Shown: in pieces, positions 9,950 through 51,247 of the stretch
Position numbering within the stretch: position 1 is the stretch's first letter
Layout: each line of letters opens with the position of its first letter
Assembly: GCF_000975115.1 (NCBI RefSeq)
Contig: NZ_BBRE01000001.1
Location: 1,021,322-1,085,321, forward strand
DNA: 64,000 nucleotides
Direction: 5' to 3'
Source: Demequina oxidasica
Lineage (GTDB): Bacteria > Actinomycetota > Actinomycetes > Actinomycetales > Demequinaceae
Made by a program: the position numbers and the translations under genes
The notes under the pieces: model-generated
Database searches by the model: none
Seen by the model: only the letters and a program-made list of their open reading frames with translations
What the model was told of the DNA's origin: nothing

Positions 9950-10183
9950 ATGGGAGGCAAGGCCACCACCCGGGTCACCAACAACATCCGAGCGCTTCGT
10001 GCTCAGCATGGGGACATGACGCAGGCGGGACTCGCGGCCAGCATCGGCGTCACGCGCCAGACGGTCATCGCGATCGAGCAGGGCAAGTATTCGCCGTCCC
10101 TCGAGATGGCGTTCCAAATTGCACGGGCATTCGAAGTCCCGCTTGACGAGGTCTTCGCCTACCCCGTACCCGAGGGGGCCTAG
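9950..10183 (+). CDS. Small XRE/Cro-type HTH regulator
   Basis: A 77-aa single-domain DNA-binding protein: NNIRALRAQHGDMTQAGLA, then a recognition helix in GVTRQTVIAIEQGKYSPSL and a C-terminal VPLDEVFAYP. This is the compact YozG-like class of autoregulators found beside small membrane proteins. It is the third gene of the DUF2178-like operon (2-nt gap) and the best candidate ligand for the twin palindromes at 8901-8966. Confidence 0.85.
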   Translation: MGGKATTRVTNNIRALRAQHGDMTQAGLAASIGVTRQTVIAIEQGKYSPSLEMAFQIARAFEVPLDEVFAYPVPEGA

Positions 10184-10282
10184 CCATCTCAACGGTCCCC
10201 GCCCGCGCTCGCTAAGAGCCCCCCTCCTCCAATCCTTCGCCACACCACCTCTGCTTTGCTCACCCAAAAACAGGAGACAGTC

Positions 10283-10984
10283 ATGCCCCACCTCAAGCGC
10301 ACCGCCCGAATCACCGGCCTGCTCTACCTCGGCCTCGCCCTTACTGGAATGCTCGATTTTCTGGTCATTCGCGGCTTGCTCTTCGCACCGGACGACGCGG
10401 CCGCCACACTCGCGAACCTCGTCAACGACCCGACACTCGCACGGCTTGGCATCGCCGCCGAACTCGGAGTGGTTCTCACCCAGTCGCTGACGGCCGTGTG
10501 GTTCTACAAGCTGTTCAGGACCGCGAACAGCGTTGCCGCCGGCGCCACGGCCGCCTTTGGTCTGGTCAACGCCGCGGCAATTCTTGGTAGCGCGGCCTTC
10601 CTTGCGAGCGCACTGGCGGTCGCCGGCGATCCGAGCCTCGCACCAGGGGGAGATTCCGCGGCAACAGTGCAGCTGATGTACACGATCTCCGGCTACTTCT
10701 GGGCCGCCGGTGCGCTGTTCTTTGGGCTGTGGTTGATTCCCATGGGGTTCGTTGCCGCACGTTCTGGTTGGATGCCGCGAGCGCTCGGCTTGGTGCTCAT
10801 GGTCGGCGGAGCCGGCTACGTCGCCAGCGCCTTCACCGCCGCCCTGCTGCCTTACGCCACCACCCTGACTGACGCCCTCACCGTACCGGCCAGCATCGGC
10901 GAGTTCTGGATGATTGGCTACCTGCTGTTTGTAGGGGTGCGCTCGATCGCCGGTGTCACGCCTACGGATAGGGTCGTCTCATGA
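10283..10984 (+). CDS. DUF4386-like membrane protein
   Basis: A 233-aa membrane protein with about six hydrophobic segments beginning RITGLLYLGLALTGM, as in the DUF4386 family. The ATG at 10283 has a clear RBS (AGGAG, 6-nt spacing); the frame is open to 10256 but without an RBS. Its stop overlaps the start of the MDR oxidoreductase (ATGA), so the two are coupled. A C-terminal FWMIGYLLFVGVR segment is typical of the family. Function unknown. Confidence 0.8.
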   Translation: MPHLKRTARITGLLYLGLALTGMLDFLVIRGLLFAPDDAAATLANLVNDPTLARLGIAAELGVVLTQSLTAVWFYKLFRTANSVAAGATAAFGLVNAAAILGSAAFLASALAVAGDPSLAPGGDSAATVQLMYTISGYFWAAGALFFGLWLIPMGFVAARSGWMPRALGLVLMVGGAGYVASAFTAALLPYATTLTDALTVPASIGEFWMIGYLLFVGVRSIAGVTPTDRVVS

Positions 10985-20494: not shown

Positions 20495-20568
20495 GCGGGT
20501 GTAGTTCAATGGTAGAACTTCAGCTTCCCAAGCTGATAGCGCGGGTTCGATTCCCGTCACCCGCTCCA
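20495..20568 (+). tRNA. tRNA-Gly (anticodon CCC)
   Basis: The cloverleaf folds fully: acceptor GCGGGTG/CACCCGC, anticodon stem TCAGC/GCTGA around loop TTCCCAA (anticodon CCC), T-arm GGGTTCGATTCCC and an encoded CCA end. It is a lone tRNA, with the SulP gene starting within 40 nt. Confidence 0.97.
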
Positions 20569-34949: not shown

Positions 34950-36188
34950 TTACGCGCCTCGGTCGCCCTCAGCTGACCGCTTGGCCATGCGCCTCGACAC
35001 CAGGCGCACCGCACGGCGACGCCATTTGAGTGCCGCCGCGGCAAAGGCCATCGATAGGCGGACGGGCTTAGAGTCTGCGCTTCCGAGGGCAACAGCACGT
35101 TGCCGCAACCGCGCCGTGCGGGTGTAGCTCGGAATGCTCGCGCCTTCGAGAATGGTGCGGCGACTGGATGCCGCGCGCTCGCGCACCACGTCGAACCAGT
35201 CGTTGTCCACCTCAGGATGGAAGTAGTTATCCGCGGACCACTCTGGGTGGGGGAGGCGAAACTCAAGCCGCGCGAGGTTGTCCAATGTCCCGGTCATGCC
35301 ACTGTCAGCGAATACTTCATTGATATTCGCCGCATCCACGCCAAAATCGGTCAGCATCAAGGCCGGGACACCGACCGCGACCGCTTCAATGGCGCCAGTA
35401 GAGCTCACCGTGAGAAACCCGCGGCACGATGAAAGGTGGGTCGCGAGCGAGCCGCGCTCGAAGGACACGTTGGGAGGCAGTTCAACCGGGGTGGTTTGAG
35501 CGAGGTCTTGGAACGCATTCACTTCAGCGTGTGTCTGCGCCTCACCAAGATTCCCGCGTAGCTTGATGACGAAAGAAACTGACGGGTGGCTTCTCGCGGC
35601 GAGTGCGATGCCCCGAAGTAGTTCGACGCGCTCGACCTTGGTGCGCGGGACGAGTGCCTGCGGAGCAAAGATCACCGAACCCTCCGGGTCCGCTCCATGC
35701 ACCTCAAGTGGTCGATCCAGTGACGCGAGCCCCACATCAATTCCCGCTCCGGGTCCGACCAAGTCCTTCAGCGCAGCGCGTTCGCGCTTGCTGTGAACTA
35801 CATAGACATCCGCGTGGGCGCGCCACTGCACTCCGAGTTGCGTGGGTGGGTACCAGATACCCGGGATCCCAACCACAATGACGGGCGGTTTGACGAGCCC
35901 CTCAAGTGCACGTCGGCACAGCAGATCAATCAACGGGCCGCGGCAAGCGAGCAATACTGCGTCGTATTTGCCTGCCCTCATCTGTCTGACCACGTGCCGT
36001 GCTGAAACGGAAGGAGGCGTGGGCCAACGCCCATTCACGGCTTCCTTTACCTGGAGCTCGCTGGGAGTCACGGCGTTCTCTACAACCACCACGCGGGCGT
36101 CGACGTCTCGCGGCAAGTCAACGGCGCGGGAGACAGCCCACTTCAAGTAGGAATCAGAGTCGGCGACTATGAGGAGGCGCAGGGGCAT
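34950..36188 (-). CDS. DUF6716-like putative glycosyltransferase
   Basis: A 412-aa cytosolic protein with a GT-B-like layout: an N-terminal Rossmann start (LRLLIVADSDSYLKWA), a mid-protein PGIWYPPTQLGVQWRAHADVYVVHS, and a C-terminal donor-half pattern (GFLTVSSTGAIEAVAVGVPALMLTDFG, ~275-300) like capsule or sialic-acid-type transferases. This matches the actinobacterial DUF6716 family, which travels with nonulosonate/capsule loci. The ATG has AAAGGA upstream. It is divergent from the plus-strand operon that starts at 36312, so the two probably share a promoter region. Acceptor and donor unknown. Confidence 0.78.
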   Translation of the reverse strand: MPLRLLIVADSDSYLKWAVSRAVDLPRDVDARVVVVENAVTPSELQVKEAVNGRWPTPPSVSARHVVRQMRAGKYDAVLLACRGPLIDLLCRRALEGLVKPPVIVVGIPGIWYPPTQLGVQWRAHADVYVVHSKRERAALKDLVGPGAGIDVGLASLDRPLEVHGADPEGSVIFAPQALVPRTKVERVELLRGIALAARSHPSVSFVIKLRGNLGEAQTHAEVNAFQDLAQTTPVELPPNVSFERGSLATHLSSCRGFLTVSSTGAIEAVAVGVPALMLTDFGVDAANINEVFADSGMTGTLDNLARLEFRLPHPEWSADNYFHPEVDNDWFDVVRERAASSRRTILEGASIPSYTRTARLRQRAVALGSADSKPVRLSMAFAAAALKWRRRAVRLVSRRMAKRSAEGDRGA

Positions 36189-36311
36189 TGTGATCCTTTA
36201 GGTTCTTAGCAAAGTCGCATGATGCGGTCACGTCGGGGAGTCAATGTGGTCACGTACACGCATGAAGCCACGTGCTAGCCTAGCGAAACCGAACCGCCTA
36301 GGAGCCCGGCC

Positions 36312-36998
36312 GTGCAACACGCAAACACCGTCCTTGAGGGTGTTGCCGACCTCGTACATCACGCACTCCCTGAGATAGAGCGCCGTCGCTACTCAGTCCA
36401 TCTGAAGGCCGACAACACTCCGGTCACAGAGGCTGACGTCTACCTCGAAACGCGCATCGAGGATTTCCTTCGCGCGCAACTGGGCGAGGTGGATTTTGTG
36501 GGCGAGGAGTCGTACCGAGAGCGTCGTCAGGACGACTCGGGGTGGCGTGCGGTACTGGATCCGATTGACGGCACCGAGAACTTTACTTCGGGTCTCAAAG
36601 AGTGGGGCGTGTCGCTCACACTGTGGCGCGACGGCGCACACGAGGCAAGCATGCTGCTGCTGCCGGAGCTGGGCGAACGCCTCATCACCGGCGACAGCAT
36701 TGAGAAGAAGAACTCCCGTATCGTGGGGTTTTCCTCGGGCATGGGCGACGCACTTGTACGCCGATTGTCCGAAGCGGGGCAAGCCCGCATTACGGGGTGC
36801 GCCGTATACAATCTTTTTAACGTAATCACAGGCTCTTTCGCGCAATTTATCAACCCGATTGGCGCCTACTCATGGGATTTACTGGCCGGCTTGTCGCTGG
36901 CACTCGAACACGGATGTGAGGTCTCACTCGATGGACAGCCCTATCACGGCGAATATCTCGAACCTGGTCGCAAGTACTGCATCAGCGTACGAAACTGA
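36312..36998 (+). CDS. Inositol-monophosphatase-family phosphatase
   Basis: A 228-aa Mg-dependent sugar phosphatase of the IMPase/FIG superfamily. Metal ligands are visible in FVGEESY (~residue 62) and DPIDGTENF (~80-88), with a shortened C-terminal part (AYSWDLLAG, ~191) carrying the third Asp. The GTG start follows a CTAGGAG RBS. It heads the plus-strand nonulosonate operon and overlaps the next gene by 68 nt. It may dephosphorylate a sugar or ulosonate phosphate intermediate; that is inference from context. Confidence 0.85.
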   Translation: MQHANTVLEGVADLVHHALPEIERRRYSVHLKADNTPVTEADVYLETRIEDFLRAQLGEVDFVGEESYRERRQDDSGWRAVLDPIDGTENFTSGLKEWGVSLTLWRDGAHEASMLLLPELGERLITGDSIEKKNSRIVGFSSGMGDALVRRLSEAGQARITGCAVYNLFNVITGSFAQFINPIGAYSWDLLAGLSLALEHGCEVSLDGQPYHGEYLEPGRKYCISVRN

Positions 36999-38484
36999 CC
37001 GGATTGTAGTCCTGGGCAAGGGGCCCTCCGCTGACAAAGTGGATCACGCCATCTTCGATGGGGCAGTCGTCATTGGCATTAATGACGCGGAACGTATCAC
37101 GCCGGCCGATATCACCCTCTTCCACGAGGAATGGGTAGGGGAGTCTGTTGCTGAGGCGGGTCTCCGGTCAAAGGCATACATCACGTCAACCAACTTTGAA
37201 GCCCCCGGGCATACTGTTTTGCATCTCCCATACGAGCCCCTGTCCAATGACACAGCGGACATCATGATGGCTCGATTCCAGGATCGCGACAACCTCGCCA
37301 TCGAGGAGGTCATGCTGCTGACCGCTCTCGAGATCGCGCGCTTGATCGCCGATGAGCGTGGGCGGGAGCAGAAGGTCTACATGGTCGGTTTCGACTTTGC
37401 GCCTGATCTTGGCTACTCGCGTGCCGCCGCAACCGGACACAGCCCCGACCTCAGCAACAACCGGAAGCTTGGCGTAGAGATCCAAGCTGACGTCCTGCGA
37501 AACGCCCTCTACACACTGCGGGACACCAATCTCTCGATTGTTCACGTAGGTGAGCACGAACTCTCACAGGCAACGCCCGATGAAGTCAATATCAAGTTTG
37601 CTCCGCAGGCGGCCTCGCCGGTAGCGGAGAGCCCCGAGGTTCCGGTGGTGGAGATCACAGCGGAGATCACCACCAACCACTTCGGCGACCGCGAACGGCT
37701 AGAGAAGCTGGTCCGCGCCGCTCACGAAGCCGGAGCCGACTGGGTCAAGGTTCAGAAGCGTGATGTGAACTCCTTCTACTCCGCGAAGCAGCTCGCAGCT
37801 CCCTATGTCTCCCCCTTCGGCACCACGTTCGGCGAGTACCGCCACGCACTCGAGTTGGATCGCGACGACTTCGCCTACATGGATGATCTTTGCAGTTCGC
37901 TCGGCATAAGGTGGTTCGCTTCGGTGCTGGATCAGCCGTCGTTCGAGTTCATGGTCGAGATGGGCGCGCCATTGCTCAAGCTCCCCAGCACTATCTCCGA
38001 ACACAAGGACTACCTGCGCCACGTCGCGGAGACCTACAGCGGCCCGCTCGTGCTGTCCACCGGCATGACAGACCAGGCTTACGAGGATTGGGTATTAGAG
38101 ACCTTCGGGAATCAGGAGAAGCTCTACCTCCTACACTGCAACTCGGCATACCCGACGCCAGACGAGCACTGCAACATCGGGGTGGTGCGTCACTACAGCG
38201 AACTCGCCAAGCGGCACCCAAACATCGTGCCGGGATACTCAAGTCACGACCACGGCTGGATGGCCTCGGCCCTCGCGGTCGGTGCGGGCGCCGGAATGGT
38301 AGAGAAGCACGTGAAGCTCGGAAACACGGAGTGGGCGCACTTTGACGCCGTCGCTGTTGACCTCACGACGCCAGCTTTCAAGGACTACGTTGACCACGTA
38401 CGGGCCGCGCAGGTCTTTGTTGGTTCGTCCACCAAGCGGGTCACCGCGAGCGAGCACCACAAGTACACAGTCAAGGCCTCGTAA
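36931..38484 (+). CDS. NeuB-type nonulosonate synthase with N-terminal GT42/MptE-like domain
   Basis: A 517-aa two-domain protein. Residues ~20-195 begin VVLGKGPSADKVD and end with VYMVGFDFAP, the GxGPS...GxDF pattern shared by GT42 sialyltransferases and DUF115/MptE proteins. Residues ~230-515 form a NeuB aldolase barrel condensing a sugar with phosphoenolpyruvate: TAEITTNHFGD, WVKVQKRD, LSTGMT, LLHCNSAYPTPDEHCN, GYSSHDHG and VEKHVKLG. The SAF (antifreeze-like) domain usual after NeuB is absent. The ATG at 36931 lies inside the IMPase gene; no start exists after that gene ends. A second NeuB is at 46327. The fusion order is unusual. Confidence 0.8.
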   Translation: MDSPITANISNLVASTASAYETDRIVVLGKGPSADKVDHAIFDGAVVIGINDAERITPADITLFHEEWVGESVAEAGLRSKAYITSTNFEAPGHTVLHLPYEPLSNDTADIMMARFQDRDNLAIEEVMLLTALEIARLIADERGREQKVYMVGFDFAPDLGYSRAAATGHSPDLSNNRKLGVEIQADVLRNALYTLRDTNLSIVHVGEHELSQATPDEVNIKFAPQAASPVAESPEVPVVEITAEITTNHFGDRERLEKLVRAAHEAGADWVKVQKRDVNSFYSAKQLAAPYVSPFGTTFGEYRHALELDRDDFAYMDDLCSSLGIRWFASVLDQPSFEFMVEMGAPLLKLPSTISEHKDYLRHVAETYSGPLVLSTGMTDQAYEDWVLETFGNQEKLYLLHCNSAYPTPDEHCNIGVVRHYSELAKRHPNIVPGYSSHDHGWMASALAVGAGAGMVEKHVKLGNTEWAHFDAVAVDLTTPAFKDYVDHVRAAQVFVGSSTKRVTASEHHKYTVKAS

Positions 38485-38486
38485 AC

Positions 38487-39599
38487 ATGGGCGCGGAAGC
38501 CGACGACCTCGTAGTGGCGGACGAGTCTGGCACTCACAGGAGTTTCTCTGAGGCCTTTGTCGCAAATCGTCGCGCATTTCAAGCCGACCCCTCGGACGCC
38601 TCGCTCGCGTTCCGTGCGGGAATCAACGCGGAGCGCGCCCACAACTACATGGGTGCCGCTCTCGCATATGAGGAGGCACTGGCAGTACCCGGTGCACCAC
38701 CAAAGTACTGGTACTTTCTAGGGCGAGCACGAGAACAATTGAATGACCCGTATCGCGCTGGATCTGCGTATCGCAAGTACGCGAACCTTGCTGCTCGCAA
38801 AGGTCGGCCCTACTTTCAACATGACGGTGGACTATTACATTACGAGAAGGCCTTGCGATTCGGCGCAGGGGCCTATCCAGCGTATGGACATGTCGTTCTC
38901 CACGCCGCACTTCTCGCAGCCAAGTTGGGGCACCCAAAGATCAGGGTCGCGGAGCTCGGCGTAGCAAACGGCAGAGGCCTCATCGCGCTTGAAAAACACG
39001 CTCGCGCCGCTAAGGAACTTACGGGTGTTGATGTGGCCGTTTTTGGTTTCGACACCGGTGAAGGACTTCCGCCATCGGAGAATCCTCGCGACATCCCGTA
39101 TTACTTTGCCTCCGGTGACTATGGCATGGACGAGGATGCGCTTCGAGAGCGCATGACAACCGCTCAACTGATCCTAGGTGACGCCGCCGACACCTTTGGC
39201 GAATGGGCCGCTGCCGACGCCTCGCCCGTCGGTGCTATTCTTTTTGACATGGATCTGTACACATCCACGGCAGCAGTATTGCGCCTGATGGGTGATGTAT
39301 TGGACGACTCTCAGATATTGCCCCGGGTCGCAATGTATTTTGATGATCTCGTTCCTAAGAAAGACACTGAACGACTCAAGGACTATACGGAGTTTGCGGG
39401 AGAATCCCTCGCAATCAACGAGTTCAACGCTGCGAACAGCGATATCAAAATTGGTCGTGACACCTTTTTCTCGTCTATCCCCGATGGACAGCCGTGGCAC
39501 GAATGCATGTTTATGATGCATCGCTTCAATCACCCTCAATATAAAGGGCCCGTCCGCGAGCCCCAGCCCGCTGTGCGGCAACTAAGCCCAAATCGCTAG
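38487..39599 (+). CDS. TPR-linked TylF-like methyltransferase
   Basis: A 370-aa protein. Residues ~25-110 form TPR-like helical pairs (AGINAERAHNYMGAALAYEEAL, YWYFLGRAREQLNDPYRAGSAYRKY). The rest is a class I SAM-dependent methyltransferase of the TylF/MycF type: VAELGVANGRGLIALEKHA (SAM site, ~153), FDMDLYTSTAAVL (metal-binding DxD, ~253) and YFDDL. TylF enzymes O-methylate sugars, so this one may methylate the polymer or a nonulosonate. It starts 3 nt after the NeuB fusion. Codons are noticeably less GC-biased than in the flanking core genes. Confidence 0.78.
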   Translation: MGAEADDLVVADESGTHRSFSEAFVANRRAFQADPSDASLAFRAGINAERAHNYMGAALAYEEALAVPGAPPKYWYFLGRAREQLNDPYRAGSAYRKYANLAARKGRPYFQHDGGLLHYEKALRFGAGAYPAYGHVVLHAALLAAKLGHPKIRVAELGVANGRGLIALEKHARAAKELTGVDVAVFGFDTGEGLPPSENPRDIPYYFASGDYGMDEDALRERMTTAQLILGDAADTFGEWAAADASPVGAILFDMDLYTSTAAVLRLMGDVLDDSQILPRVAMYFDDLVPKKDTERLKDYTEFAGESLAINEFNAANSDIKIGRDTFFSSIPDGQPWHECMFMMHRFNHPQYKGPVREPQPAVRQLSPNR

Positions 39600-39642
39600 C
39601 GGAGTTACCCACCGCCGAGCGCCCCACGTCTGGAGAGATGCT

Positions 39643-40398
39643 TTGACTGAGTACGACGAACTAGTCGTGATTCCTGCCCGCTACCGTTCAACTCGTTTGC
39701 CGGGCAAACCTCTGGTAGATATTGCCGGCAAGCCAATGATCGTTCGCACCGCCGAACAGTGCTTGAAGGTGATGCCTCGGGAACAGGTTGTCGTCGCCAC
39801 TGACGATGAACGCATTGCTGAAGTGTGCGAGAAGAGCCGCCTACGAGTCGAAATGACGAACCCGGACCATCCAACCGGGGGTGACCGCGTTGCAGAGGTT
39901 GCCTCAAGAATTTCAGCGAAGACGTACATCAACGTTCAAGGCGACGAACCTATTTTCAATCCGCAAGACATTGTGGATATTGCGAACGCGTCCCGAGCGG
40001 ACCGAACCAAGACGATCATCGGTTATTGCGATATGACTGAAGAACAGTGGTTGGATTCCAAGTACCTAAAGCTGATCTTTGGTCTGAATAACCAGCTGAT
40101 CTACATTGGGCGAGCACCAGTACCCGGTTCTCATTCAGGGAAGTTTACAGTGGGGTTTAGGCAGGTTTGCGTGTACGCGTATCCCGGTAGTGCGCTCGCC
40201 GAATTCACTGCGACGGGAAAGCGCACTCCGCTGGAGAGTATCGAGGACCATGAGGTCATGCGCTTTCTTGAACTCGGGATGCCAGTCCACGTACTTCGGT
40301 TGTCCGATGACTCGCAGCCTGTGGACAGGCCGGACGACGTCCTCATCGTGGAACGCCGACTTAGAGAGTTAGAAGAAGCCGGCCTCACGGAGAAGTGA
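39643..40398 (+). CDS. kdsB: KdsB-type CMP-ulosonate cytidylyltransferase
   Basis: A 251-aa enzyme that activates a 3-deoxy-ulosonic acid with CTP. It matches the KdsB pattern: VVIPARYRSTRLPGKPL (~9-25), VVATDDERI, NPDHPTGGDRVAEV, NVQGDEPIF, then GIYAY-type (VCVYAYPG) and ESIEDHEVMRFLELG. KdsB normally charges Kdo for lipopolysaccharide, so its presence in a Gram-positive suggests a wall-polymer sugar (Kdo, Kdn or a derivative). The TTG start at 39643 has GGAGAGA upstream. It is coupled to the next gene (GTGA overlap). A second, NeuA-type enzyme is at 47195. Confidence 0.87.
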   Translation: MTEYDELVVIPARYRSTRLPGKPLVDIAGKPMIVRTAEQCLKVMPREQVVVATDDERIAEVCEKSRLRVEMTNPDHPTGGDRVAEVASRISAKTYINVQGDEPIFNPQDIVDIANASRADRTKTIIGYCDMTEEQWLDSKYLKLIFGLNNQLIYIGRAPVPGSHSGKFTVGFRQVCVYAYPGSALAEFTATGKRTPLESIEDHEVMRFLELGMPVHVLRLSDDSQPVDRPDDVLIVERRLRELEEAGLTEK

Positions 40399-42470
40399 CC
40401 ACAGCACACGTAAATATCATGACCAACTTAGATGAGGGCAACATCGAATCTCCCAAACGGAAACCTCACGCGATCGAGCGGGGACCCCGTGGCAAGCGAC
40501 TCAAGGCGGCGGCTAGGGGATTCTTAAAATCAAGTGCGACGTTGGCGTTCGCACTTCCGATGGTGGACGAATGCGTTGCTCTTCTTGCGCCTAGAGTTGG
40601 CTCCGTCGGCGTAACCCGAGCACAACGCGACATGGCGTTTCCGGCCAAATTCAGACCTAAGTTGCGCGACCGAATGGCGCGGGCGATGATCGGCCTCAAT
40701 CCTGGCGGTAAAGAGATGCTGCTCCAGCGGGCGCAACAGGACCGCGTCAAGAACGCTTCAGTGCTTGAACTTGCCGCCGCTCGCGAAGACACCAAAGGTA
40801 ACCGGCAAGCCGCGATATCGTATCGTCGCAAGGCCGTCGAAATGGATCCTGGCGCGGCACACAGATACGTCGCACTAGCTGCGGCCTTGCGGAAGTCAGA
40901 AACCACGGAGATTCAGCAGGACGGCATTCTCGGCTTGGTCTCAACACGCGTCGGTGACCGACGTGAGGCAATTGAGATGCTCGAGACTGCTCTCCGCGTT
41001 TCTGGAGGAAATTCTTATGTTTCCCATTCTCTTGGTATGGCACTTTTTGCCGATGGGCGGATGTTCGAAGCAATCCCCCATCTTGAAGCGGCAGTAGCGG
41101 TAGACGCCAAAGCACAGTGGGAGTACGAACTAGGAAGGGCCTACGCTCGTCCTCAAGTGCTCGACTTCGAACGCGCAAAGGCTGCGTACTTACGTGCCCT
41201 AGAGCTCAATCCGAAACACTCGATGGCGATGTCGCAGTTCATTATGGCTGCGTGTCGATCGAACCTGGATTGGCCCGTGATGTGGGAAATGGGGTGCCGA
41301 CTTCAAGACTTGCGCGCCTCCAGGATTAGCACTGACCAAAAGGACGCACTTGCGGTGATGCTTGAGTCAATCAAGCCGCTTTTCGTGGACCCCGATTTTG
41401 AGGCTTCGCGGGGCATGCCGATCGCGGCACTCAATAGGGCGCAAGCGCAAGGACTTCCGCTCCACAGTGTGCTGTTGAATCTGATCGCTGTCCGGCTGCA
41501 GTTCCTGGGCTATATCCGCGAAGGATTTGAAGTCAAAGAACTCATGGCTCGTCGCTACATTCGAGACTTCAGTACAGGGCGACGCGAGATTCCTCGTCTT
41601 CGGGCACGGTTGCAGGCGTACGCGTATCTCAACCGAATTGATGAGGCACTGGAACTACTAGACCCGCCGCTGTGGCCCTCCCCCGACCCCAAACAGCGCG
41701 CAAAGTTCGCCAAGCTTGCAGCCGATTTTCATCTACTATCCGGCAATGCCTCACCACTCGCTGAATATTCTCAGAAGCAGCGCGGCGTTGATCCCTTGCC
41801 CGGAGACGATGCGATGAACCGATTGATCGCGGGAAAGCGGGTCGCCATAGTTGGGCCTGCCGCGACTTCGGACAAGTTTGGCTCAATGATCGATGGTTAT
41901 GACACAATTATCCGGCCACGCTTCCAGAAAGAGTTCGTTGACGAGCACCGCGAACAGGGGGGAAGCAGAACGGACATCGCCTACTACTCAGGTCGTGATT
42001 TCGGCCCGTTGTATGAAGAGGTCGAAGCAGCCATCAATTGTGGCGACCTTCAACTCGCCACAATTCGCCCGTTGCTCTACGCGGAATATGGTTCCTCGGC
42101 TCCTGAGTGGCTCCGCTTCTATAGGCAAGAGATGTCTCTCTATATGAAGAGCTTCTCTTTGGGTATTCCCCGGATTGCGTATGATGTCCTGCAGTTTTCC
42201 CCTAGTGAGGTCACCATCTTCAACGCCGATCTCTACGCTGGTACTACGGCCTTCGCCGACGGCTACCGGCCCACGCACGACACCGCGATCGCGCCGGGTT
42301 CGGTCATGAACGATGTACTCGTTGCACACGATCTTGCCTTTGACTTCAGGTACCTAAAGGGCATGTACGACCATGGGATCATCGGCGCTGAGGGAATTTC
42401 AAAGCAAGTGCTAGAGATGACACAAGACGAGTACCTCGACCGAGTCGCGAGTGGTGGTGCGCTCCGCTAG
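40395..42470 (+). CDS. TPR protein with degenerate sialyltransferase-like C-terminal domain
   Basis: A 691-aa protein. Residues ~110-300 carry TPR-type repeats (AAISYRRKAVEMDPGAAHRYVALAAAL, AIEMLETALRVSGG, AKAAYLRALELNPKHSM) and more helical repeats follow to ~460. The C-terminal 210 residues start RVAIVGPAATSDKFGSMIDGYDTIIRP, resembling the nucleotide-binding motif of GT29/GT42 enzymes and of the gene at 44804, but with PAAT in place of GNS. GTG start overlaps the KdsB stop. It ends the plus operon, 15 nt from the convergent minus operon. It may be a transferase or a scaffold for one. Confidence 0.7.
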   Translation: MTTAHVNIMTNLDEGNIESPKRKPHAIERGPRGKRLKAAARGFLKSSATLAFALPMVDECVALLAPRVGSVGVTRAQRDMAFPAKFRPKLRDRMARAMIGLNPGGKEMLLQRAQQDRVKNASVLELAAAREDTKGNRQAAISYRRKAVEMDPGAAHRYVALAAALRKSETTEIQQDGILGLVSTRVGDRREAIEMLETALRVSGGNSYVSHSLGMALFADGRMFEAIPHLEAAVAVDAKAQWEYELGRAYARPQVLDFERAKAAYLRALELNPKHSMAMSQFIMAACRSNLDWPVMWEMGCRLQDLRASRISTDQKDALAVMLESIKPLFVDPDFEASRGMPIAALNRAQAQGLPLHSVLLNLIAVRLQFLGYIREGFEVKELMARRYIRDFSTGRREIPRLRARLQAYAYLNRIDEALELLDPPLWPSPDPKQRAKFAKLAADFHLLSGNASPLAEYSQKQRGVDPLPGDDAMNRLIAGKRVAIVGPAATSDKFGSMIDGYDTIIRPRFQKEFVDEHREQGGSRTDIAYYSGRDFGPLYEEVEAAINCGDLQLATIRPLLYAEYGSSAPEWLRFYRQEMSLYMKSFSLGIPRIAYDVLQFSPSEVTIFNADLYAGTTAFADGYRPTHDTAIAPGSVMNDVLVAHDLAFDFRYLKGMYDHGIIGAEGISKQVLEMTQDEYLDRVASGGALR

Positions 42471-42485
42471 CGGCCGGCGGGGGCG

Positions 42486-44807: not shown

Positions 44808-46252
44808 AGTTCTCCTCTGAGCGAGGTAATGATCCCACTCACTCGCGTGGTGTGTTGGGCAACCCATTCGCGCTCGGCCTCATAGTTGTGCGCCGTGGCG
44901 ATCTGCAATGATTGGGCTGACTTGAGTCGGTAGGCCCCCGACCTGTAGAAGTCGAAGCCCACCAGATCTATCACCGGAGATACATCCAAAAAGTCAAGCA
45001 ATCGCAGCATGTTAAACCCCGACGTAGGGACCCCGATATGGGAATCATCTGCGACGACTTCCTTACTACGCACGGGCCAACGCAGACTCTCGTCTCCTAG
45101 ATAGCTCTGTGCCTGCGGGCGAAGATGTTTGACGAGCGATGTACGCCACGCGACGGGGTTGCCCCCAAAGACAATCCGAACATCGACAGGAACGTCCCAG
45201 TTGAAGTCGTGCATGTGGATCATCGCGTGAATCGTTGTCTTGGATCCAGTGTTTCCCGGATCGATGATGAAGGAGTTGAAGCGGATCACCTCATCGTACG
45301 AGTCGATCACCGACCCCAGACCACTCTTGGCGATCGCTTGTGAGTTCGCGATCACGGCAACGGAACGTCCGCGCAAGCGGTTCGCCAAACCCGCAACGTC
45401 AATCGTGTCGAACTCGGTCACAGCATCGGGCGGAAGCTTCACAGTCGCGCCCAATCGGTCCATCGCCACGGTTCGCGTCGCGAGCTCAACTGTGCGCAAG
45501 CTAGATCCGTGCAGCACCTCTTGCTGGACAAGATGGCGGGCCGCCCTGTCGGCGACGTCAAAGGGAAGCGCGGTGGTTACCGAGGCGATCGCGCTCCTGC
45601 GCTCCTCGATTCTCTCTGGCATGTCTGAGGGCGACGACAGAGCGAGTTCGGTGAGCCCATATACTGCATGGGCCGCGCTCTCGGGATCTGGCGCCGCAGA
45701 AGTTGGCAACCGAATCAGTTCCTCAAGCGCACTCCGATTTTGCTCATCGTTCGGAGCCACTAGCGAGTCAAGATCACCGGTGAGTGTGTGCAGAGCCCTG
45801 AATGCAGCCTTTGCTCCGGTACGGTCCCCCGTCACCTGGTACGCATTCAAGAGGATTCGCTGAGCCGCCGGTGATCCTGGATCCGCCGTCGCCACGAGTT
45901 CCGCCAATGAGATCGCGAGTGTGGGCTCTGCGACGCGCAGCGCGGCCGTAGCGGCATCCAGTGCGCTCCGCTTGACCTTGGACTGTCCGCGCTCCGCAAT
46001 GGGGGCCGCTCCAAGGGCAAGCTTCAAGGCGTGCGAACGTTGCCGCAGCGCCACCTCGAGCGTGAGAAGTCCAATGGCTCGCACAAACTCTTGGTGAGGT
46101 TTGCTGGCGGCCACTGCCTTGTCACGCGACGCCACCTGCGCTTCTGCGATCACTCGCCACCACGCGGCGTTGGTCTTGCGGAACGCCCCCCGAGAACGCA
46201 CGACGTCGCGGACAAGTTTCACCGCTCGACGCGCCCTTGAACTAATCTTCAT
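44804..46252 (-). CDS. GT29-like sialyltransferase with helical N-terminus
   Basis: A 482-aa protein. The N-terminal ~270 residues are Ala-rich helices with TPR-like spacing (AAQRILLNAYQVTGDRTGAKAAFRAL). From ~285 it carries a clear GT29 L-motif: SVAVIANSQAIAKSGLG, then SYDEVIRFNSF and GSKTTIHAMIH, followed by FDFYRSGAYRLKS near the C-terminus. GT29 enzymes use CMP-sialic or CMP-Kdn-type donors. The start is uncertain: ATG at 46252 is used here, and a TTG at 46291 is in frame. It lies 74 nt after neuB and overlaps the GT8 fusion. Confidence 0.72.
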   Translation of the reverse strand: MKISSRARRAVKLVRDVVRSRGAFRKTNAAWWRVIAEAQVASRDKAVAASKPHQEFVRAIGLLTLEVALRQRSHALKLALGAAPIAERGQSKVKRSALDAATAALRVAEPTLAISLAELVATADPGSPAAQRILLNAYQVTGDRTGAKAAFRALHTLTGDLDSLVAPNDEQNRSALEELIRLPTSAAPDPESAAHAVYGLTELALSSPSDMPERIEERRSAIASVTTALPFDVADRAARHLVQQEVLHGSSLRTVELATRTVAMDRLGATVKLPPDAVTEFDTIDVAGLANRLRGRSVAVIANSQAIAKSGLGSVIDSYDEVIRFNSFIIDPGNTGSKTTIHAMIHMHDFNWDVPVDVRIVFGGNPVAWRTSLVKHLRPQAQSYLGDESLRWPVRSKEVVADDSHIGVPTSGFNMLRLLDFLDVSPVIDLVGFDFYRSGAYRLKSAQSLQIATAHNYEAEREWVAQHTTRVSGIITSLRGEL

Positions 46253-46326
46253 CCTCAGCCCAAGCCAGAAGTGTTGAGAGTCGACTCGCAAGTAGTCGTA
46301 CAGAAAGTGCGGTCTTCACAGCGCCG

Positions 46327-47202
46327 CTAGGAGGCGACGCGACGGAGCTTGCTCAGCGGAGCCAATTCGCCAGGAAAAACACGCTTTACGCCATCGCCCA
46401 GACCGGTCTCGATGATGCGGATGTCGCGCACCAAGTGGTCGAGCCCCTGCGGCTCAAGCGAGGCGGCGTGGTCGCTGCCCCACATCGTGCGGTCAAGGGT
46501 GATGTGGCGCTCGACGACGCAGGCGCCCAACGCGACCGCGGCTAGCGAAATCTGCAAGCCGGGCTCGTGGCCCGAGTAACCCGTGGGGACGCCGTAGCGC
46601 TCCATGAGGGTCGGAATCATGCGCAGGTTCGCCTCCTCGGGGGGAAGCGGGTAGGTCGAGGTCGCGTGCAGAATGATCAAGTTGTCGAGGCCGAGGGTCT
46701 CGACGGCGGCATCGATCTGCTCAATAGTGGACATGCCAGTGGACAGGATGACGGGCTTGCCGGTCTCACGGATCTTCGCGAGCATCGACAGGTCGGTGAC
46801 AGAGGCCGAGGCAATCTTGTACGCCATCGCGTCGCGGTCCTCGAGGAAGTCCACGGAGGGCTCGTCCCACGGGGAGGCGAACCAGTCCATGCCCTTCGTG
46901 TGGCAGTATGCGGCGATCTGGTCGTACTCGTCCTTCTCGAACTCCACCTTGTAGCGGTAGTCGAGGTACGTCATGGTGCCCCACGGAGTCTCGCGTGGGG
47001 TGTCCTTCATGTGCTCCGGCGTGGAGATCGCGGGAGTACGCTTCTGGAACTTCACTGCCTGGCAGCCCGCATTCGCCGCGACGTCGATGAGTTGGAGGGC
47101 GGTCTCGACGCTGCCGTTGTGGTTGAGGCCAATCTCGGCGATCACATAAACGGGACGGCCGGGGCCGATCTGGTTGGAACCGATGGTGACAACTTCAGAC
47201 AT
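46327..47202 (-). CDS. neuB: NeuB-type N-acetylneuraminate/nonulosonate synthase, no SAF domain
   Basis: A 291-aa synthase that condenses phosphoenolpyruvate with N-acetylmannosamine, mannose or its phosphate. Hallmarks are IAEIGLNHNGSV, CQAVKFQKR, WFASPWDEPSVDFL, LSTGMSTIEQID, LHATSTYPLPPEEANL, TGYSGHEPG and VVERHITLDRTMWGSDH. The C-terminal SAF domain (about 60 residues) is absent, as in the NeuB fusion at 36931. It overlaps the NeuA-KdsC gene by 8 nt. The exact sugar is unknown; the linked KdsC-like phosphatase hints at a 9-phosphate route (Kdn-9-P or Neu5Ac-9-P). Confidence 0.9.
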   Translation of the reverse strand: MSEVVTIGSNQIGPGRPVYVIAEIGLNHNGSVETALQLIDVAANAGCQAVKFQKRTPAISTPEHMKDTPRETPWGTMTYLDYRYKVEFEKDEYDQIAAYCHTKGMDWFASPWDEPSVDFLEDRDAMAYKIASASVTDLSMLAKIRETGKPVILSTGMSTIEQIDAAVETLGLDNLIILHATSTYPLPPEEANLRMIPTLMERYGVPTGYSGHEPGLQISLAAVALGACVVERHITLDRTMWGSDHAASLEPQGLDHLVRDIRIIETGLGDGVKRVFPGELAPLSKLRRVAS

Positions 47203-48370
47203 TTTGGGGACTCCTTCCGGCGAGGATCATCTCCGCGAGTTCGCGAAGCGCTCCGCGCCCGCCGTTCCGGGTCAGGGTGATCCGGGCGGCCCTTTGGGCT
47301 AATGGGTGGGCATCTGGGACTACGACTGGCCACCCCACAACCTCGAGGCAACTAACGTCGTTCACATCATTACCGACGTAAATCACACTCGAGAGCGGGA
47401 TTTGCCGTTGTTCACACCACTGCCGCAAAACGTTCACCTTCTCGTCAACGCCGTACACCGTTTCGACACCTAATTTGCGTCCGCGGGCTTCGACCACGGG
47501 GTTTCGTTCCTTGGACAGAATCAACATCGGCAACCCCGCATCACGCAGCATTCCCAGACCCATTCCGTCCGACCTGCTCACGGTCACGGACTCCGTTCCA
47601 TCCTCGGAGACCTCGACACGGTCGTCGGTGTGGACGCCGTCAAAATCCATCACAAGAGCGCTGGCGTCGATTGCCCGCGGCTTGTCTAGGACGGGGGCGA
47701 GCGCGCGGGCCATGTCTAGCTCCGCTGGTTCATCAATCTCTAGGCCCGATGCCGCGGTCACCTCCTGGATTCCCACGCGGCCAAAGAAGCGGAACCGGTG
47801 ACGCTCGAAGCCGGCGGCGTCCATGACGTAGAACGCACCGGTTTCCTGGAAGTGGGGCTCGCGGTCCTGGCGGCGAGGGCGGAATGAGTGGTCGTGGTTG
47901 ACGCCCTGTGCGCCCGCGGCGCTGGGCTTCCACAGGAACGCGTACGTCTCAAACGCGGCGAACACCACGTCCTCGTCGCCGTCCTCGACCCGCGCTACTG
48001 CGTCGTCCAGCGCATCGGCATCGATAAAGGGCGAGGTGGCCTGCATGAAGACCACAGTGCTAGGCGAGGCGCCGCCTGCGCGAATGGCCGCGAGCGCGTG
48101 CAGCACCGCGTCCTCCGAGGACGCTTGGTCGCCAGCGATGTCCGCGGGCCGGCGGACAATGCTGGCACCAGCCTCGCTCGCGGCGGCGGCTATCGCGTCG
48201 TCATCAGTGGAGACGTACACCGCGCCGATGCGCGGGGCGGCGAGTGCGGTGCGCACCGCCCGGGCGACCAGTGGTACTCCCCCAACTCTCGCCACGTTCT
48301 TGCCCGGAACTCCCTTGGAGCCCCCGCGAGCGGGAATGATGGCGACGGCCGTGGGGTCAGACACGAGCAT
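47195..48370 (-). CDS. neuA: CMP-nonulosonate synthetase fused to KdsC-like phosphatase
   Basis: A 391-aa bifunctional enzyme. Residues ~7-225 are NeuA-type: AIIPARGGSKGVPGKN, VSTDDDAIA, SSEDAVLHAL, FMQATSPF and ETGAFYVMD. Residues ~235-385 are a KdsC-type HAD with an intact motif I (DFDGVHTDD), motif II LSKERN, and GNDVNDVSCL. Unlike some eukaryotic homologues, the catalytic Asp pair is present, so phosphatase activity is likely. The ATG at 48370 has GAGGAG upstream and overlaps the GT52-like gene by 14 nt. Product: CMP-activated sugar for the neighbouring transferases. Confidence 0.9.
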   Translation of the reverse strand: MLVSDPTAVAIIPARGGSKGVPGKNVARVGGVPLVARAVRTALAAPRIGAVYVSTDDDAIAAAASEAGASIVRRPADIAGDQASSEDAVLHALAAIRAGGASPSTVVFMQATSPFIDADALDDAVARVEDGDEDVVFAAFETYAFLWKPSAAGAQGVNHDHSFRPRRQDREPHFQETGAFYVMDAAGFERHRFRFFGRVGIQEVTAASGLEIDEPAELDMARALAPVLDKPRAIDASALVMDFDGVHTDDRVEVSEDGTESVTVSRSDGMGLGMLRDAGLPMLILSKERNPVVEARGRKLGVETVYGVDEKVNVLRQWCEQRQIPLSSVIYVGNDVNDVSCLEVVGWPVVVPDAHPLAQRAARITLTRNGGRGALRELAEMILAGRSPQNV

Positions 48371-49337
48371 CGGCTCCTCTTGGCTTGGCGATGCGGCGCA
48401 GCGTGGTGCGTAGTGCCTCGTCCGCACGTTTGGTGAGCCACTCCTCGGGCACCGGGCACACGCTGAGCTCGACGTTCTCCGGCAGGATGTTGCGTAGCGT
48501 GGCGACCACGCTCGAGGGCAGGGTCACTACGGTAGTGAGTTCGCGCGATGAGGCGAGCACTATCTCTATCGGCAGCACCGCCTTGCGCACCTTGAGGCCC
48601 TCGATCTCCTTGAGTCGTTTGAGGCTCTTGGTCTTCTCGCGCCGATGCGGGAAATAGACCCGTGCGCCAGCCGCCACCTGGGCCTCGACCCATGCGCGGT
48701 ATGGCGCCCCCTTGACGTAGCCGTCATCGAACAGAGCGCTGCCGAGGATCACGTTCTGCATCGCGCCGTCATCCTTGACGAACTTGGTCCTGCGCACCCA
48801 GCGGTACTTGTTGTGGCTCACCCGGCCTCCTGCGTGCGCGAGAGACAGCAGCTCGTCGTCGCGGGAGTAGGCAGTGAATGCACGCAAGCCGCCTGTGGTC
48901 AGCGTGTGGTGCAGCCGCCTCCCCGCAAGCGTCCCCAAGCGGCGGGCCAACCACGATTCGGTGCGACCGTGCCGCGCAAGCGGACGGTTCTCGCGCACCT
49001 GGTCAGCGAAACCCAGCATCGCGCTGCCGTCGTCCACCGCGACCAAGTCCCGGACTCCAGTGAGCGCCACCGCAAGTCTGAACTGACCCGAATACGGATC
49101 GCCGGTGAGTCGCTCGCGCGCCACGATGAAGGGCGACAGAAAGGCGAAGTTCCACACGCCGGCGATATGCACATCCTCCGGTAGGTGGGGTGCGAGCACG
49201 TCGGCCGTGTACTGGAGCTGCTTTGAGTTGGCTCGCATGCAGATACGCAGCGGCTCGCCGGTAGCCGCGGCGTACTCCACCGCGTTGACCAGTTGTAGGG
49301 GCGACTCCACCCAAGCGACTCTCGTCATAGGCGCCAT
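48357..49337 (-). CDS. GT52/polysialyltransferase-like protein
   Basis: A 326-aa protein beginning TRVAWVESPLQLVNAVEYA, the N-terminal signature of GT52 and polysialyltransferase-type (alpha-2,8) families, in which a nucleotide-sugar domain follows a first GT-B half. A C-terminal block ELTTVVTLPSSVVATLRNIL carries a Ser-Ser pair that corresponds to their CMP-sugar site. It would add or extend a nonulosonic acid chain. Start and stop are tightly packed with the NeuA gene (overlap), and 87 nt separate it from the exporter gene upstream. The match is by motif only. Confidence 0.65.
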   Translation of the reverse strand: MAPMTRVAWVESPLQLVNAVEYAAATGEPLRICMRANSKQLQYTADVLAPHLPEDVHIAGVWNFAFLSPFIVARERLTGDPYSGQFRLAVALTGVRDLVAVDDGSAMLGFADQVRENRPLARHGRTESWLARRLGTLAGRRLHHTLTTGGLRAFTAYSRDDELLSLAHAGGRVSHNKYRWVRRTKFVKDDGAMQNVILGSALFDDGYVKGAPYRAWVEAQVAAGARVYFPHRREKTKSLKRLKEIEGLKVRKAVLPIEIVLASSRELTTVVTLPSSVVATLRNILPENVELSVCPVPEEWLTKRADEALRTTLRRIAKPRGADARV

Positions 49338-49424
49338 CGCACCACACGGACCTGAACGCGCGGTTAAAGAAAGATGGCCACCAGACGACGGTTGCCTGAG
49401 CCCCGCCGGCCGCTCCGACGCGCG

Positions 49425-50186
49425 CTACTTCTTAGCGGAGGCTTGGTAGGCCTTCACGACCTTCTTAGGGTCGCCATCCATCTTGAGATTTCCGTGGTCA
49501 ATCCACAGCACGCGGGTACAGGTGTCCAGGATGGACCGCATCGAGTGGCTCACCAGGAACACGGTTCCAGCCTGCTCGCGCAGGTCACGGATCCGCTGCT
49601 CCGACTTGTCCCGGAAGGCCTTGTCGCCCACGGCCAACGCCTCGTCGACCAACAGGATCTGGTGGTCTCGCGAGACCGCAATGGAGAACCGCAAGCGTGC
49701 CTGCATGCCGGACGAGTACGTCTTCATGGGCAGGTCGATGAACTCCGAAAGCCCGGAGAACTCCACAATGTCCTCGTACTGCTCCTCGGCCGCGGCCTTG
49801 GAGTGGCCCATCGCGAGCGCACCGAGCAGCACATTCTTCTCCCCGGACAGGTCGGGAATGAGGGCGGCGTTGACGCCCAGCAGGGCGGGGCGGCTCGACG
49901 CGTACACGGCACCCTGCGTCGCGGTGGTCAGTCCCGCAATGGTGCGCATGAGCGTGGACTTACCGGAACCGTTGTGGCCGATAACGCCGATCGACTCGCC
50001 CTCACGAACCTCGAACGAGACTCCCTTGAGGGCGTGGACGACGCGGATGCCCTTCTGCCTCTTGAAGAGCGATCCGCCGTTGGCGAGGGCCTTGCCGGAC
50101 GCATGCGTGCGGTACTCGACATGGACATCGTTGGCGACGACGATAGGGGCGCCCAACTTCGGGGGCGCGGTGGGAGCCTCAGTCAC
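49425..50186 (-). CDS. Wzt/TagH-type polysaccharide exporter ATPase
   Basis: A 253-aa ABC ATPase that powers export of an undecaprenyl-linked glycopolymer. It has the N-terminal IVVANDVHVEYR and a long insert, Walker A GHNGSGKST (~88), the TagH-like PDLSGEKNVLLG region, signature TYSSGMQARLRFSIA (~160), Walker B LLVDEALAVGD and VSHSM. Compared with long TagH/Wzt proteins it lacks the C-terminal carbohydrate-binding domain. GTG start with AGGAAAGG; it overlaps the permease gene by 8 nt. It belongs with the nonulosonate locus. Confidence 0.9.
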   Translation of the reverse strand: MTEAPTAPPKLGAPIVVANDVHVEYRTHASGKALANGGSLFKRQKGIRVVHALKGVSFEVREGESIGVIGHNGSGKSTLMRTIAGLTTATQGAVYASSRPALLGVNAALIPDLSGEKNVLLGALAMGHSKAAAEEQYEDIVEFSGLSEFIDLPMKTYSSGMQARLRFSIAVSRDHQILLVDEALAVGDKAFRDKSEQRIRDLREQAGTVFLVSHSMRSILDTCTRVLWIDHGNLKMDGDPKKVVKAYQASAKK

Positions 50187-51039
50187 GACCGTACCTTTCC
50201 TCGGCACGCCAGAAGAAGATGACACCAATAATCAGCATCGAGAGTGACGACCCAATGACAACCCACCACATCAGTGGAGATGCCTCATTGCCGGTCACCA
50301 TCTGGGCGCGGACCAGGGTGATGAAGTCGTGGATCGGGTTGAGCTCGACGAGCTTAAGCAACCATGGTGGCTTGTCTTTAAGCACCTGTTCGAGCGAGTA
50401 AAAGATTCCCGACGAGTAAAAGAGGATGCGCGTCAGTAGCGGGATGATCTGGGTCACGTCACGCAGGTGCACGGTAAGACGCGCGGAAATGAGCGCGATG
50501 CCGAGGTTGAACATCGTCATAAGCGCCAGGATTACCGGCACAAGGAGCCAAGCCCAAGTGATGGGCTCCCCGAATCCAACGATGATCAGGGTCATCACGG
50601 CGATGATCGGGACCAGCTCAAACACCTGCTGGATGACGGCTGCGATGGGCAGCAACATGCGAGGAAAGTTCAGGCTCCTCACCAGGGAAGCATTCGACGT
50701 GATCGACTTGGCACCAGCACTGAAAGACTTCGAGAAGAACTCGAAGATGAACACACCAACGACGAGGAACGGCACAAAGTTATCGGGGCGCGACTCGCTC
50801 GACATGATCACGCCAAAGATGGTGCCGAAGATGATCGCCGTGAAGATGGGCCGGATCACAATCCACCCAAGGCCAAGGCGGTTCTCGCTCATGGTGGCCT
50901 GGATGCGGAACCGCGCCAGGGTGTACGCGAAGTGCCGACGTTCCCACAGTTCCTTGAGGTACGCACCAAGCGGGGCGCGCGCGCCAACGCGCTCAAGCCC
51001 AGCGTCCGTGGCCAACTTCTCGTAGTCGGTATCCGTCAC
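50179..51039 (-). CDS. Wzm/TagG-type polysaccharide exporter permease
   Basis: A 286-aa ABC-2 permease with six membrane helices and a cytosolic N-terminal amphipathic part (ELWERRHFAYTLARFRIQA), then RLGLGWIVIRPIFTAIIFGTIFGVI. It matches TagG/Wzm/RfbD exporters of teichoic and O-antigen-like polymers. The GTG at 51039 follows a GGGGGG stretch; a longer in-frame start exists at 51081. It pairs with the overlapping ATPase and should export the polymer made by this locus. Confidence 0.9.
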   Translation of the reverse strand: MTDTDYEKLATDAGLERVGARAPLGAYLKELWERRHFAYTLARFRIQATMSENRLGLGWIVIRPIFTAIIFGTIFGVIMSSESRPDNFVPFLVVGVFIFEFFSKSFSAGAKSITSNASLVRSLNFPRMLLPIAAVIQQVFELVPIIAVMTLIIVGFGEPITWAWLLVPVILALMTMFNLGIALISARLTVHLRDVTQIIPLLTRILFYSSGIFYSLEQVLKDKPPWLLKLVELNPIHDFITLVRAQMVTGNEASPLMWWVVIGSSLSMLIIGVIFFWRAEERYGRD

Positions 51040-51247
51040 GCGTCGCCCCCCGCGATAGCGCGCGCGGGCGCGCAGACGCATCGCGTCATCTGAATCATGT
51101 GGGGCACAGGTGTCCTCATTCGGGGTCCGTGGAGCGCGACCATTTGGGTGCCGCGTGGTGGCTAGTCTGCCAAGATTCTAGTTCACGCGCCACAATCGCC
51201 CGCATTCCGGGCAACTCGCGTCGCACCCCGAACCAACGTGTGGCCGC

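Follow-up and report, generated by a model that had tools for sequence, protein, structure and literature searches.

Two NeuB modules in a putative wall-polymer locus of Demequina oxidasica, one of them a recurring three-gene cassette

Why would one bacterium keep two sugar-acid synthases of the NeuB type, with two unlike cytidylyltransferases, in a single locus? The question is raised by a 64,000-nucleotide stretch of Demequina oxidasica DNA (hereafter the window; assembly GCF_000975115.1, contig NZ_BBRE01000001.1, positions 1,021,322 to 1,085,321), in which two operons converge with stops at 42470 (plus strand) and 42486 (minus strand) and genes within each operon overlap or lie no more than about 90 bases apart. 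The genome containing the window (2.62 Mb, 99% complete) has two PF03102 genes, both in this locus. An initial annotation made from the letters alone had described one gene set for a wall polymer bearing two different nonulosonic acids. The genes and their neighbours are consistent with export of a wall-type polymer that contains nonulosonate, but a single inherited two-operon unit is ruled out: the minus-strand operon belongs to the core of the genus (12 of 12 loci) and the plus-strand operon is a rare insert (its NeuB fusion occurs in 3 of 44 Demequina genomes). The insert carries a three-gene set (an inositol monophosphatase [IMPase]-family phosphatase, a NeuB fused to an extra N-terminal domain, and a cytidylyltransferase) that was found in Actinomycetota, Pseudomonadota, Cyanobacteriota, Bacteroidota, Verrucomicrobiota and Planctomycetota. 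With moderate confidence, we read the locus as building and exporting an acidic teichulosonic-acid-type wall glycopolymer that would be fed by two separate amine-free CMP-ulosonate pathways (CMP, cytidine monophosphate). The new element is a separable cassette with a swapped phosphatase, making this a variant of nonulosonate biosynthesis and not a new kind of system.

The genes of the locus (window coordinates, strand) and the matches behind each assignment are as follows.

34950-36188, minus: DUF6716 putative glycosyltransferase (PF20471, E = 9e-102)
36312-36998, plus: IMPase/HisN/CysQ-family phosphatase (PF00459, E = 5e-20)
36931-38484, plus: fusion of a Maf/GT42/MptE-like Rossmann domain (about residues 1-225) with a NeuB barrel (about 237-500) (PF03102; fold searches)
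38487-39599, plus: TPR protein, C-terminal half possibly class I S-adenosylmethionine (SAM)-methyltransferase-like (TPR-type matches only)
39643-40398, plus: KdsB-like cytidylyltransferase (NF009905, E = 2e-69, under cut-off; NF003952 over cut-off)
40395-42470, plus: TPR protein and GT29-like transferase candidate (TPR match; C-terminal likeness to GT29-matching neighbours of the fusion)
42486-44867, minus: two-domain protein, GT8 at the N-terminus plus polysaccharide pyruvyltransferase (PF01501, PF04230)
44804-46291, minus: C-terminal GT29 sialyltransferase-like domain of a longer protein (PF00777, E = 7e-7)
46327-47202, minus: free-standing short NeuB, 291 residues (PF03102, E = 3e-82)
47195-48427, minus: NeuA/PseF-like cytidylyltransferase fused to a KDN-9-phosphatase/KdsC-type HAD domain (TIGR03584 and NF058599, both under cut-offs)
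48357-49337, minus: conserved core protein, glycosyltransferase candidate (no family match)
49425-50228, minus: TagH/Wzt-like export ATPase (PF00005; teichoic-acid and galactan export models under cut-offs)
50179-51081, minus: TagG/Wzm-like ABC-2 export permease (PF01061; NF050109 under cut-off)

The plus operon thus runs from the IMPase gene (36312) through the fused NeuB, the TPR protein and the KdsB-like gene to the TPR/GT29-like gene, and the minus operon starts with TagG (51081) and finishes with the GT8-pyruvyltransferase gene. Database matches agreed with the initial annotation on its main genes, namely the two NeuB synthases, the two unlike cytidylyltransferases, the pyruvyltransferase and the TagGH-type exporter, and the gene coordinates agreed with its point of convergence at 42.48 kb. 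It had passed over the IMPase-family gene and the DUF6716 family of the gene at 34950-36188, as well as the HAD domain carried by the NeuA protein and the missing SAF matches of both synthases.

A recurring cassette and its phosphatase

Scanning genome contigs with two short peptide patterns returned at least 61 loci with relatives of the fusion, 60 of which were profiled (L108, with no match to the N-terminal domain, was excluded), as were 18 loci with a free-standing NeuB (L032 and L034-L050). An IMPase gene lay within about 4 kb in 48 of the 60 fusion loci; several fusion loci are close to a contig edge (e.g., L060 and L061), where a missing IMPase is uninformative. In 44 of the 48 it had an offset of 589 to 625 bases before the fused domain, and in the window it overlaps the fused NeuB gene. 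A HAD domain, by contrast, was found within 6 kb in none of the 60 fusion loci; 16 of the 18 free-standing NeuB loci had one, and none of these 18 had an IMPase. Across 19 IMPase sequences of several phyla the motifs E-E, D-P-[IV]-D-G-T and W-D are kept, with one I/V site varying; we take E-E, D-P-I-D-G-T and W-D to be the metal-binding motifs of the IMPase/FIG superfamily. A cytidylyltransferase lay within 6 kb in 45 of the 60 fusion loci, NeuA-like in most and KdsB-like in few, and because the two kinds swap among these loci, the KdsB-like enzyme of the window need not imply Kdo. Of 24 genomes searched (representing 24 of the 61 loci), 20 gave the fusion as their sole NeuB and the other 4 a second, free-standing one as well; the cassette can therefore stand alone. 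A search of open-licence papers returned none in which the IMPase and the NeuB fusion are treated as partners in one pathway; PMC10433991 came closest.

Both systems also meet outside Demequina. In a metagenome-assembled Nesterenkonia genome (L061, about 415-10300), one of the 4 with a second NeuB, the fusion faces a core-type NeuB and a NeuA-HAD gene about 8 kb further on, on the other strand, which is a second case, in a second lineage, of the convergent two-module arrangement. The neighbourhood of the fusion varies in other respects. In Nesterenkonia sedimenti (L052:5382-6896) the fusion and a TPR/GT29-like gene are followed downstream by a gene for a 505-residue protein with two cytidylyltransferase stretches; one Nesterenkonia has a pyruvyltransferase gene near the fusion; and in a Sphingobacterium (L098:11572-13246) the next genes after the fusion encode a small GT29-like protein and a pyruvyltransferase, the two functions being paired as in the window.

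The cassette is likewise part of enterobacterial capsule clusters. One chromosomal cluster type bearing it occurred in 11 of 5,426 complete Escherichia coli genomes, another in 4 E. coli genomes (3 plasmid-borne, two of those plasmids being equal in length) and a third on an Enterobacter plasmid; example loci are L144, L147 (E. coli KE47, CU532-9), L145, L148 and L146. Proteins cut out of E. coli and other clusters scored 685 to 691 bits against the fusion profile and 275 to 285 bits against the IMPase profile, and the HAD profile, run on these cut-out proteins rather than whole loci, had no match. The clusters contain kps-like export genes, capsule polysaccharide genes and rfbBDAC, and by their likeness to those in the excerpt of PMC10433991 they would be of group 3 type. 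Their annotated products, several of which are hypothetical, include none named as NeuC-type. For new E. coli group 3 clusters, that excerpt lists precursors including CMP-sialic acid, inositol and CMP-Neu5Ac and states that structural data are lacking; the IMPase of these clusters was presumably read there as an inositol gene. The same excerpt gives no assigned cluster for K3 (O4:K3:H4), a group 3 capsule. One E. coli carrier of the cassette is O4:H5.

Core and insert in Demequina

From 20 genus relatives with a free-standing NeuB match, 12 core loci (L032, L034-L043 and L045) were examined. TagG, TagH, the glycosyltransferase candidate at 48357-49337, NeuA-HAD, NeuB and DUF6716 were present in all 12, and in 6 the set is flanked, as in the window, by pyruvate dehydrogenase (E1) and adenylosuccinate-lyase genes. 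The free-standing NeuB is kept across genus and order, and its nearest structure in the PDB is a short Leptospira synthetase (6ncs, E = 2e-44). The HAD half of the NeuA protein has KdsC and KDN-9-phosphatase as its best named models, below cut-off (NF058599: E = 5e-26, 91.6 of 180 bits; KdsC models score alike), and matched the structures 3mmz (E = 4e-48, the best) and 3e81 (E = 3e-18). DUF6716 is encoded by the single copy found in the genome. Judged by these family matches, the minus operon with DUF6716 reads as a Kdn-type teichulosonate locus forming the Demequina core. The GT29-like domain at 44804-46291 exceeds the Pfam cut-off (PF00777, 29.3 bits vs. 23, over 53 residues), in line with the initial annotation, although mammalian GT29 chains in the PDB gave E values of 0.14 to 0.36 at best. 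The name "GT52-like" proposed for 48357-49337 found no backing, since that protein matched no Pfam or NCBIfam family and had one chance-level PDB match.

Other minus-operon genes are less constant. Homologues of the GT8-pyruvyltransferase occur in 2 of the 12 core loci (L039, 45%; L041, 54%), and the C-terminal part of 44804-46291 has a 56% homologue in L041 and a weak relative in L039. Given that both the pyruvyltransferase and the GT29-like protein thus have counterparts in further core loci, they are best placed, on sequence likeness, with the variable part of the core. The near relative G036 has core proteins 91 to 98% identical to those of the window and a DUF6716 of only 46% identity; it differs from the window from after NeuB to DUF6716, lacks the accessory module, and has in place of the insert a protein of 920 residues that matches GT4 and, weakly, polysialyltransferase (L043:10381-13143). 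Since that GT4 protein occupies the position of the insert, the slot between NeuB and DUF6716 looks like a place where polymer genes are exchanged.

Beyond the scarcity of the fusion in the genus, the TPR/GT29-like protein (40395-42470) was found in 2 of the 44 Demequina genomes, and a sample of 297 genomes from the order included 3 with the fused N-terminal domain. In a tree of 37 hand-picked loci of the 61, plus the window, L002 and L033 (the set also used for the domain model), fusions from Actinomycetota group together as a single clade (100/99); Nesterenkonia is the sister group of the window plus D. pelophila (99/97), and a metagenome-assembled D. lutea genome falls outside, so that Demequina is not one branch. 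G+C is 0.56 to 0.59 across 36-46 kb and mostly 0.61 to 0.67 elsewhere in the window, though it also drops to 0.58 at 24-26 kb. The TPR protein at 38487-39599 has a 48% homologue in D. pelophila; read from its letters alone, its C-terminal half is possibly SAM-methyltransferase-like, but database matches are of TPR type only, and neither the methyltransferase nor the O-methyl group on the polymer of the initial annotation drew any database match. The TPR/GT29-like protein is 37% identical over 617 residues to a Nesterenkonia protein adjoining the fusion, and its C-terminal part is 39% identical over 56 residues to a GT29-matching protein adjoining the fusion in Sphingobacterium.

A few further features were seen in and around these loci. 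The accessory operon of D. pelophila has tandem KdsB-like genes (L031:15778-17242), 43% and 57% identical to that of the window. Transposase-like frames, read from the letters and in keeping with mobility, lie beside accessory genes in L033 (near 10360-10977) and beside the core NeuB in L032 (near 3795-4505). A tRNA-Gly (CCC) at 20495-20568 was the sole RNA gene or element detected across the window.

Which sugar acid, and what the fused domain may do

Pathway genes narrow the choice of sugar. As the initial annotation had noted for the locus, no NeuC-type epimerase was found, PF02350 being without a match anywhere in the genome (the same search was positive in 11 of 14 controls). KdsA (TIGR01362) likewise had no match in the genome, and PseB (TIGR03589) had one of 19 bits against a cut-off of 408. 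Neu5Ac or legionaminic acid by way of a NeuC-type epimerase, Kdo and pseudaminic acid were rejected on these respective grounds, and flagellin glycosylation, which the Maf-like fold described below had brought up, was rejected because Demequinaceae are described as non-motile in the excerpt of PMC6113628. The genome does have one ManA, and together with the absence of NeuC, of KdsA and of any PseB over cut-off this points to mannose-6-phosphate as the probable precursor. Classical NeuB synthases carry a C-terminal SAF (antifreeze-like) domain. Neither NeuB of the window has a SAF match, both proteins stopping just past the barrel, and both could yield Kdn; conversion of mannose-6-phosphate to Kdn-9-phosphate would be the simplest chemistry for the pair. 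Such a route appears in the excerpt of PMC6200933, for an alga that also lacks a recognisable Kdn-9-phosphate phosphatase. Excerpts of other papers describe a Promicromonospora citrea wall polymer with 7,9-pyruvylated Kdn (PMC6801904), a Streptomyces coelicolor Kdn wall polymer carrying methyl (PMC7831098) and GT29 as a family transferring ulosonic acids (PMC13171606).

The two synthases are far from identical copies. They share about 31% identity, have distinct conserved motifs and both fall under the Neu5Ac and pseudaminic equivalog cut-offs, the NeuB domain of the fusion scoring 139 bits against a named-synthase cut-off of 400. Since each also has its own phosphatase and cytidylyltransferase, production of two distinct ulosonic acids by the strain is possible, as far as sequence can tell. 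The fusion (517 residues; open frame 36859-38484, the start ATG at 36931 being inferred from the overlap and from relatives) has NeuB as its C-terminal half, whose model resembles NeuB and PseI (Z 30 to 32) more than KDO8P synthases (Z about 20); E245, H250, K273, K350, S437, S438, H439, E458 and H460 are invariant in 40 fusions.

The N-terminal domain of the fusion belongs to no Pfam family (best MptE-like, E = 0.17, in 3 of 40 relatives), and a sequence-profile search of the PDB gave nothing useful. Modelled alone from 40 sequences (mean pLDDT 88), as a fold search with the whole fusion was filled by the NeuB barrel, it agreed with the "GT42/MptE-like" label of the initial annotation: the best matches were a Maf glycosyltransferase (5mu5; Z 11.2, root mean square deviation [rmsd] 4.1, 177 aligned), CstII (1ro7; Z 10.1, rmsd 3.9, 175 aligned) and an MptE-type kinase (HPPK, 8sd5; Z 9.6, rmsd 3.6, 149 aligned), followed by thiamin pyrophosphokinases (up to Z 9.3), SteA (Z 8.8), mammalian GT29 (about 8) and a bacterial sialyltransferase (Z 7.4), with all remaining rows at or below 4.5. 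Plain Foldseek placed a GT29 enzyme first (E = 8e-4) amid many weak Rossmann matches. The motifs G-K-G, N-D, G-F-D-F and H-V-G vary little or not at all across 40 relatives. In CstII the catalytic base, His188, lies before the last long helix; inspection by eye of 20 of the 40 aligned rows, with no superposition of residues, showed no conserved His before that helix. Because of this, a role in CMP-sugar binding, feedback or channelling would seem at least as likely for the modelled domain as transfer.

In the scheme that follows, we infer all substrates and products, the sequence of reactions and the placement of the polymer in the wall. In the core module, the short NeuB would join mannose-6-phosphate and phosphoenolpyruvate (PEP) to give Kdn-9-phosphate, the HAD half of the NeuA fusion would take off the phosphate and the NeuA half would form CMP-Kdn; DUF6716, the candidate at 48357-49337 and the GT29-like protein would assemble the chain, the GT8-pyruvyltransferase would decorate it and TagGH would export it. 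In the accessory module, the NeuB half of the fusion would make a second ulosonate phosphate, which the IMPase-family protein, replacing the HAD enzyme, would dephosphorylate; the KdsB-like enzyme would then activate the ulosonate with CMP and the TPR/GT29-like protein would add it. The fused Maf/GT42-like domain would bind CMP-sugar, for feedback or channelling, rather than serve as the main transferase.

Competing readings and known systems

Both modules might instead make Kdn, the insert being redundant or flux-boosting and having arrived with new glycosyltransferases, so that the polymer holds one ulosonic acid. We regard this as quite possible, though not the better account. The shared lack of a SAF match speaks for it, as does mannose-6-phosphate being the obvious precursor for both modules, and so does the make-up of the 61 loci, in which the cassette genes occur in 48, 37 and 35 and the next protein cluster in only 16, although an epimerase/dehydratase-like cluster (identified from the letters only) is present in 10. 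The divergence and distinct motifs of the two NeuB types, the presence of two GT29-type proteins and the retention of both systems in one locus by the Nesterenkonia L061 argue the other way. It is less likely, and in our view improbable, that the fused module makes an ulosonic acid other than a nonulosonic one, of different chain length or configuration, from another aldose or aldehyde phosphate. In Demequina the activating enzyme is KdsB-like and not NeuA-like, and the NeuB domain of the fusion is remote from named synthases; moreover, the E. coli K3 capsule reportedly contains a 4-deoxy-2-hexulosonic acid (according to the title of a paper), and the cassette is carried by the O4:H5 strain. 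That link from K3 to the cassette is conjectural, however, condensation with PEP is expected to give a 3-deoxy and not a 4-deoxy acid, relatives swap the KdsB-like enzyme for NeuA-like partners, and the fold of the NeuB half sides with sialic and pseudaminic synthases over KDO8P synthases.

Single parts of the scheme could also be read otherwise. The fused domain may be a working Maf/GT42-like transferase for the module's own sugar, with the TPR/GT29-like proteins doing something else, an alternative that deserves real weight while falling short of persuading us: its best fold matches, Maf and then CstII, and its nearly invariant motifs favour transfer, but the catalytic His was not seen in the 20 rows inspected, GT29-like or polysialyltransferase-like genes adjoin the fusion in some loci, and the fold group includes the non-transferases MptE and thiamin pyrophosphokinase. 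The IMPase might act elsewhere, on 3'-phosphoadenosine 5'-phosphate after sulfation, on inositol phosphate (with inositol as a building block) or on an aldose phosphate before NeuB. Its named models, HisN, CysQ and IMPase, are all under cut-off, and inositol is among the E. coli group 3 precursors in the excerpt of PMC10433991. We hold this to be unlikely, as against it stand the near-constant offset at which the IMPase accompanies the fusion across phyla and its absence from the free-standing NeuB loci, which mostly carry HAD.

Several observations weigh against the two-pathway reading that we prefer. Fifteen of the 60 fusion loci have no cytidylyltransferase within 6 kb, and the HAD profile behind the zero count in those loci was built partly from the core loci themselves and may miss distant HADs. 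In L061 a HAD does lie about 8 kb from the fusion, sitting with its core-type NeuB. Among 11 of the 12 Nesterenkonia genomes (L055 was left out), 6 have the fusion but only generic IMPases (33 to 39% identity over part of the protein), and there the specific IMPase is dispensable or of another role; the specific gene persists in the other 5, in one of them as a fragment, and it adjoins the fusion in one genome, lies about 4 kb away in a second and is on a different contig in three. The NF058599 and TIGR03584 matches of the NeuA-HAD protein lie below cut-off, and the methyltransferase (38487-39599) and one glycosyltransferase (48357-49337) lack confirming matches.

A wider proposal, which we put forward tentatively and with more doubt than the two-pathway reading itself, is that a three-gene CMP-ulosonate route (IMPase, NeuB with a Maf/GT42-like domain serving as sensor or transferase, and a synthetase of either NeuA or KdsB type) has spread horizontally across phyla, was inserted in the Demequina Kdn locus to give a two-acid polymer and also feeds some E. 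coli group 3 capsules. If so, genes annotated as N-acetylneuraminate synthase and inositol monophosphatase would form one sugar-acid pathway from actinobacteria to E. coli capsules, the IMPase would be a second enzyme family for ulosonate phosphates, and a CMP-sugar-binding domain on the first enzyme would be a possible feedback design. It would also predict a Demequina wall polymer with two ulosonic acids.

Among known systems, the Kdn teichulosonic acid systems (S. coelicolor SCO4873-4882 and the P. citrea polymer) are likewise actinobacterial and concern a Kdn wall polymer; SCO4873-4882 is named as the Kdn polymer gene region, and the available excerpt mentions no second NeuB module. Like the CMP-Kdn pathway of the Bacteroides thetaiotaomicron type, the core module comprises a short NeuB, a KDN-9-phosphatase-like HAD and a cytidylyltransferase, the last two being fused in the window, whereas the accessory module has an IMPase-family protein for the HAD and an extra domain on NeuB. 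That extra domain shares its fold with the Maf/GT42 (CstII)/MptE Rossmann superfamily, yet it lies beyond any Pfam model, shows no conserved catalytic His to the eye in the 20 rows inspected and is joined to a sugar-acid synthase. The E. coli group 3-type clusters have the same three-gene cassette (fusion 42 to 44% and IMPase 38 to 40% identical to the window) but place it in a Gram-negative capsule locus with kps-type export, rfbBDAC and a distantly NeuA-like cytidylyltransferase.

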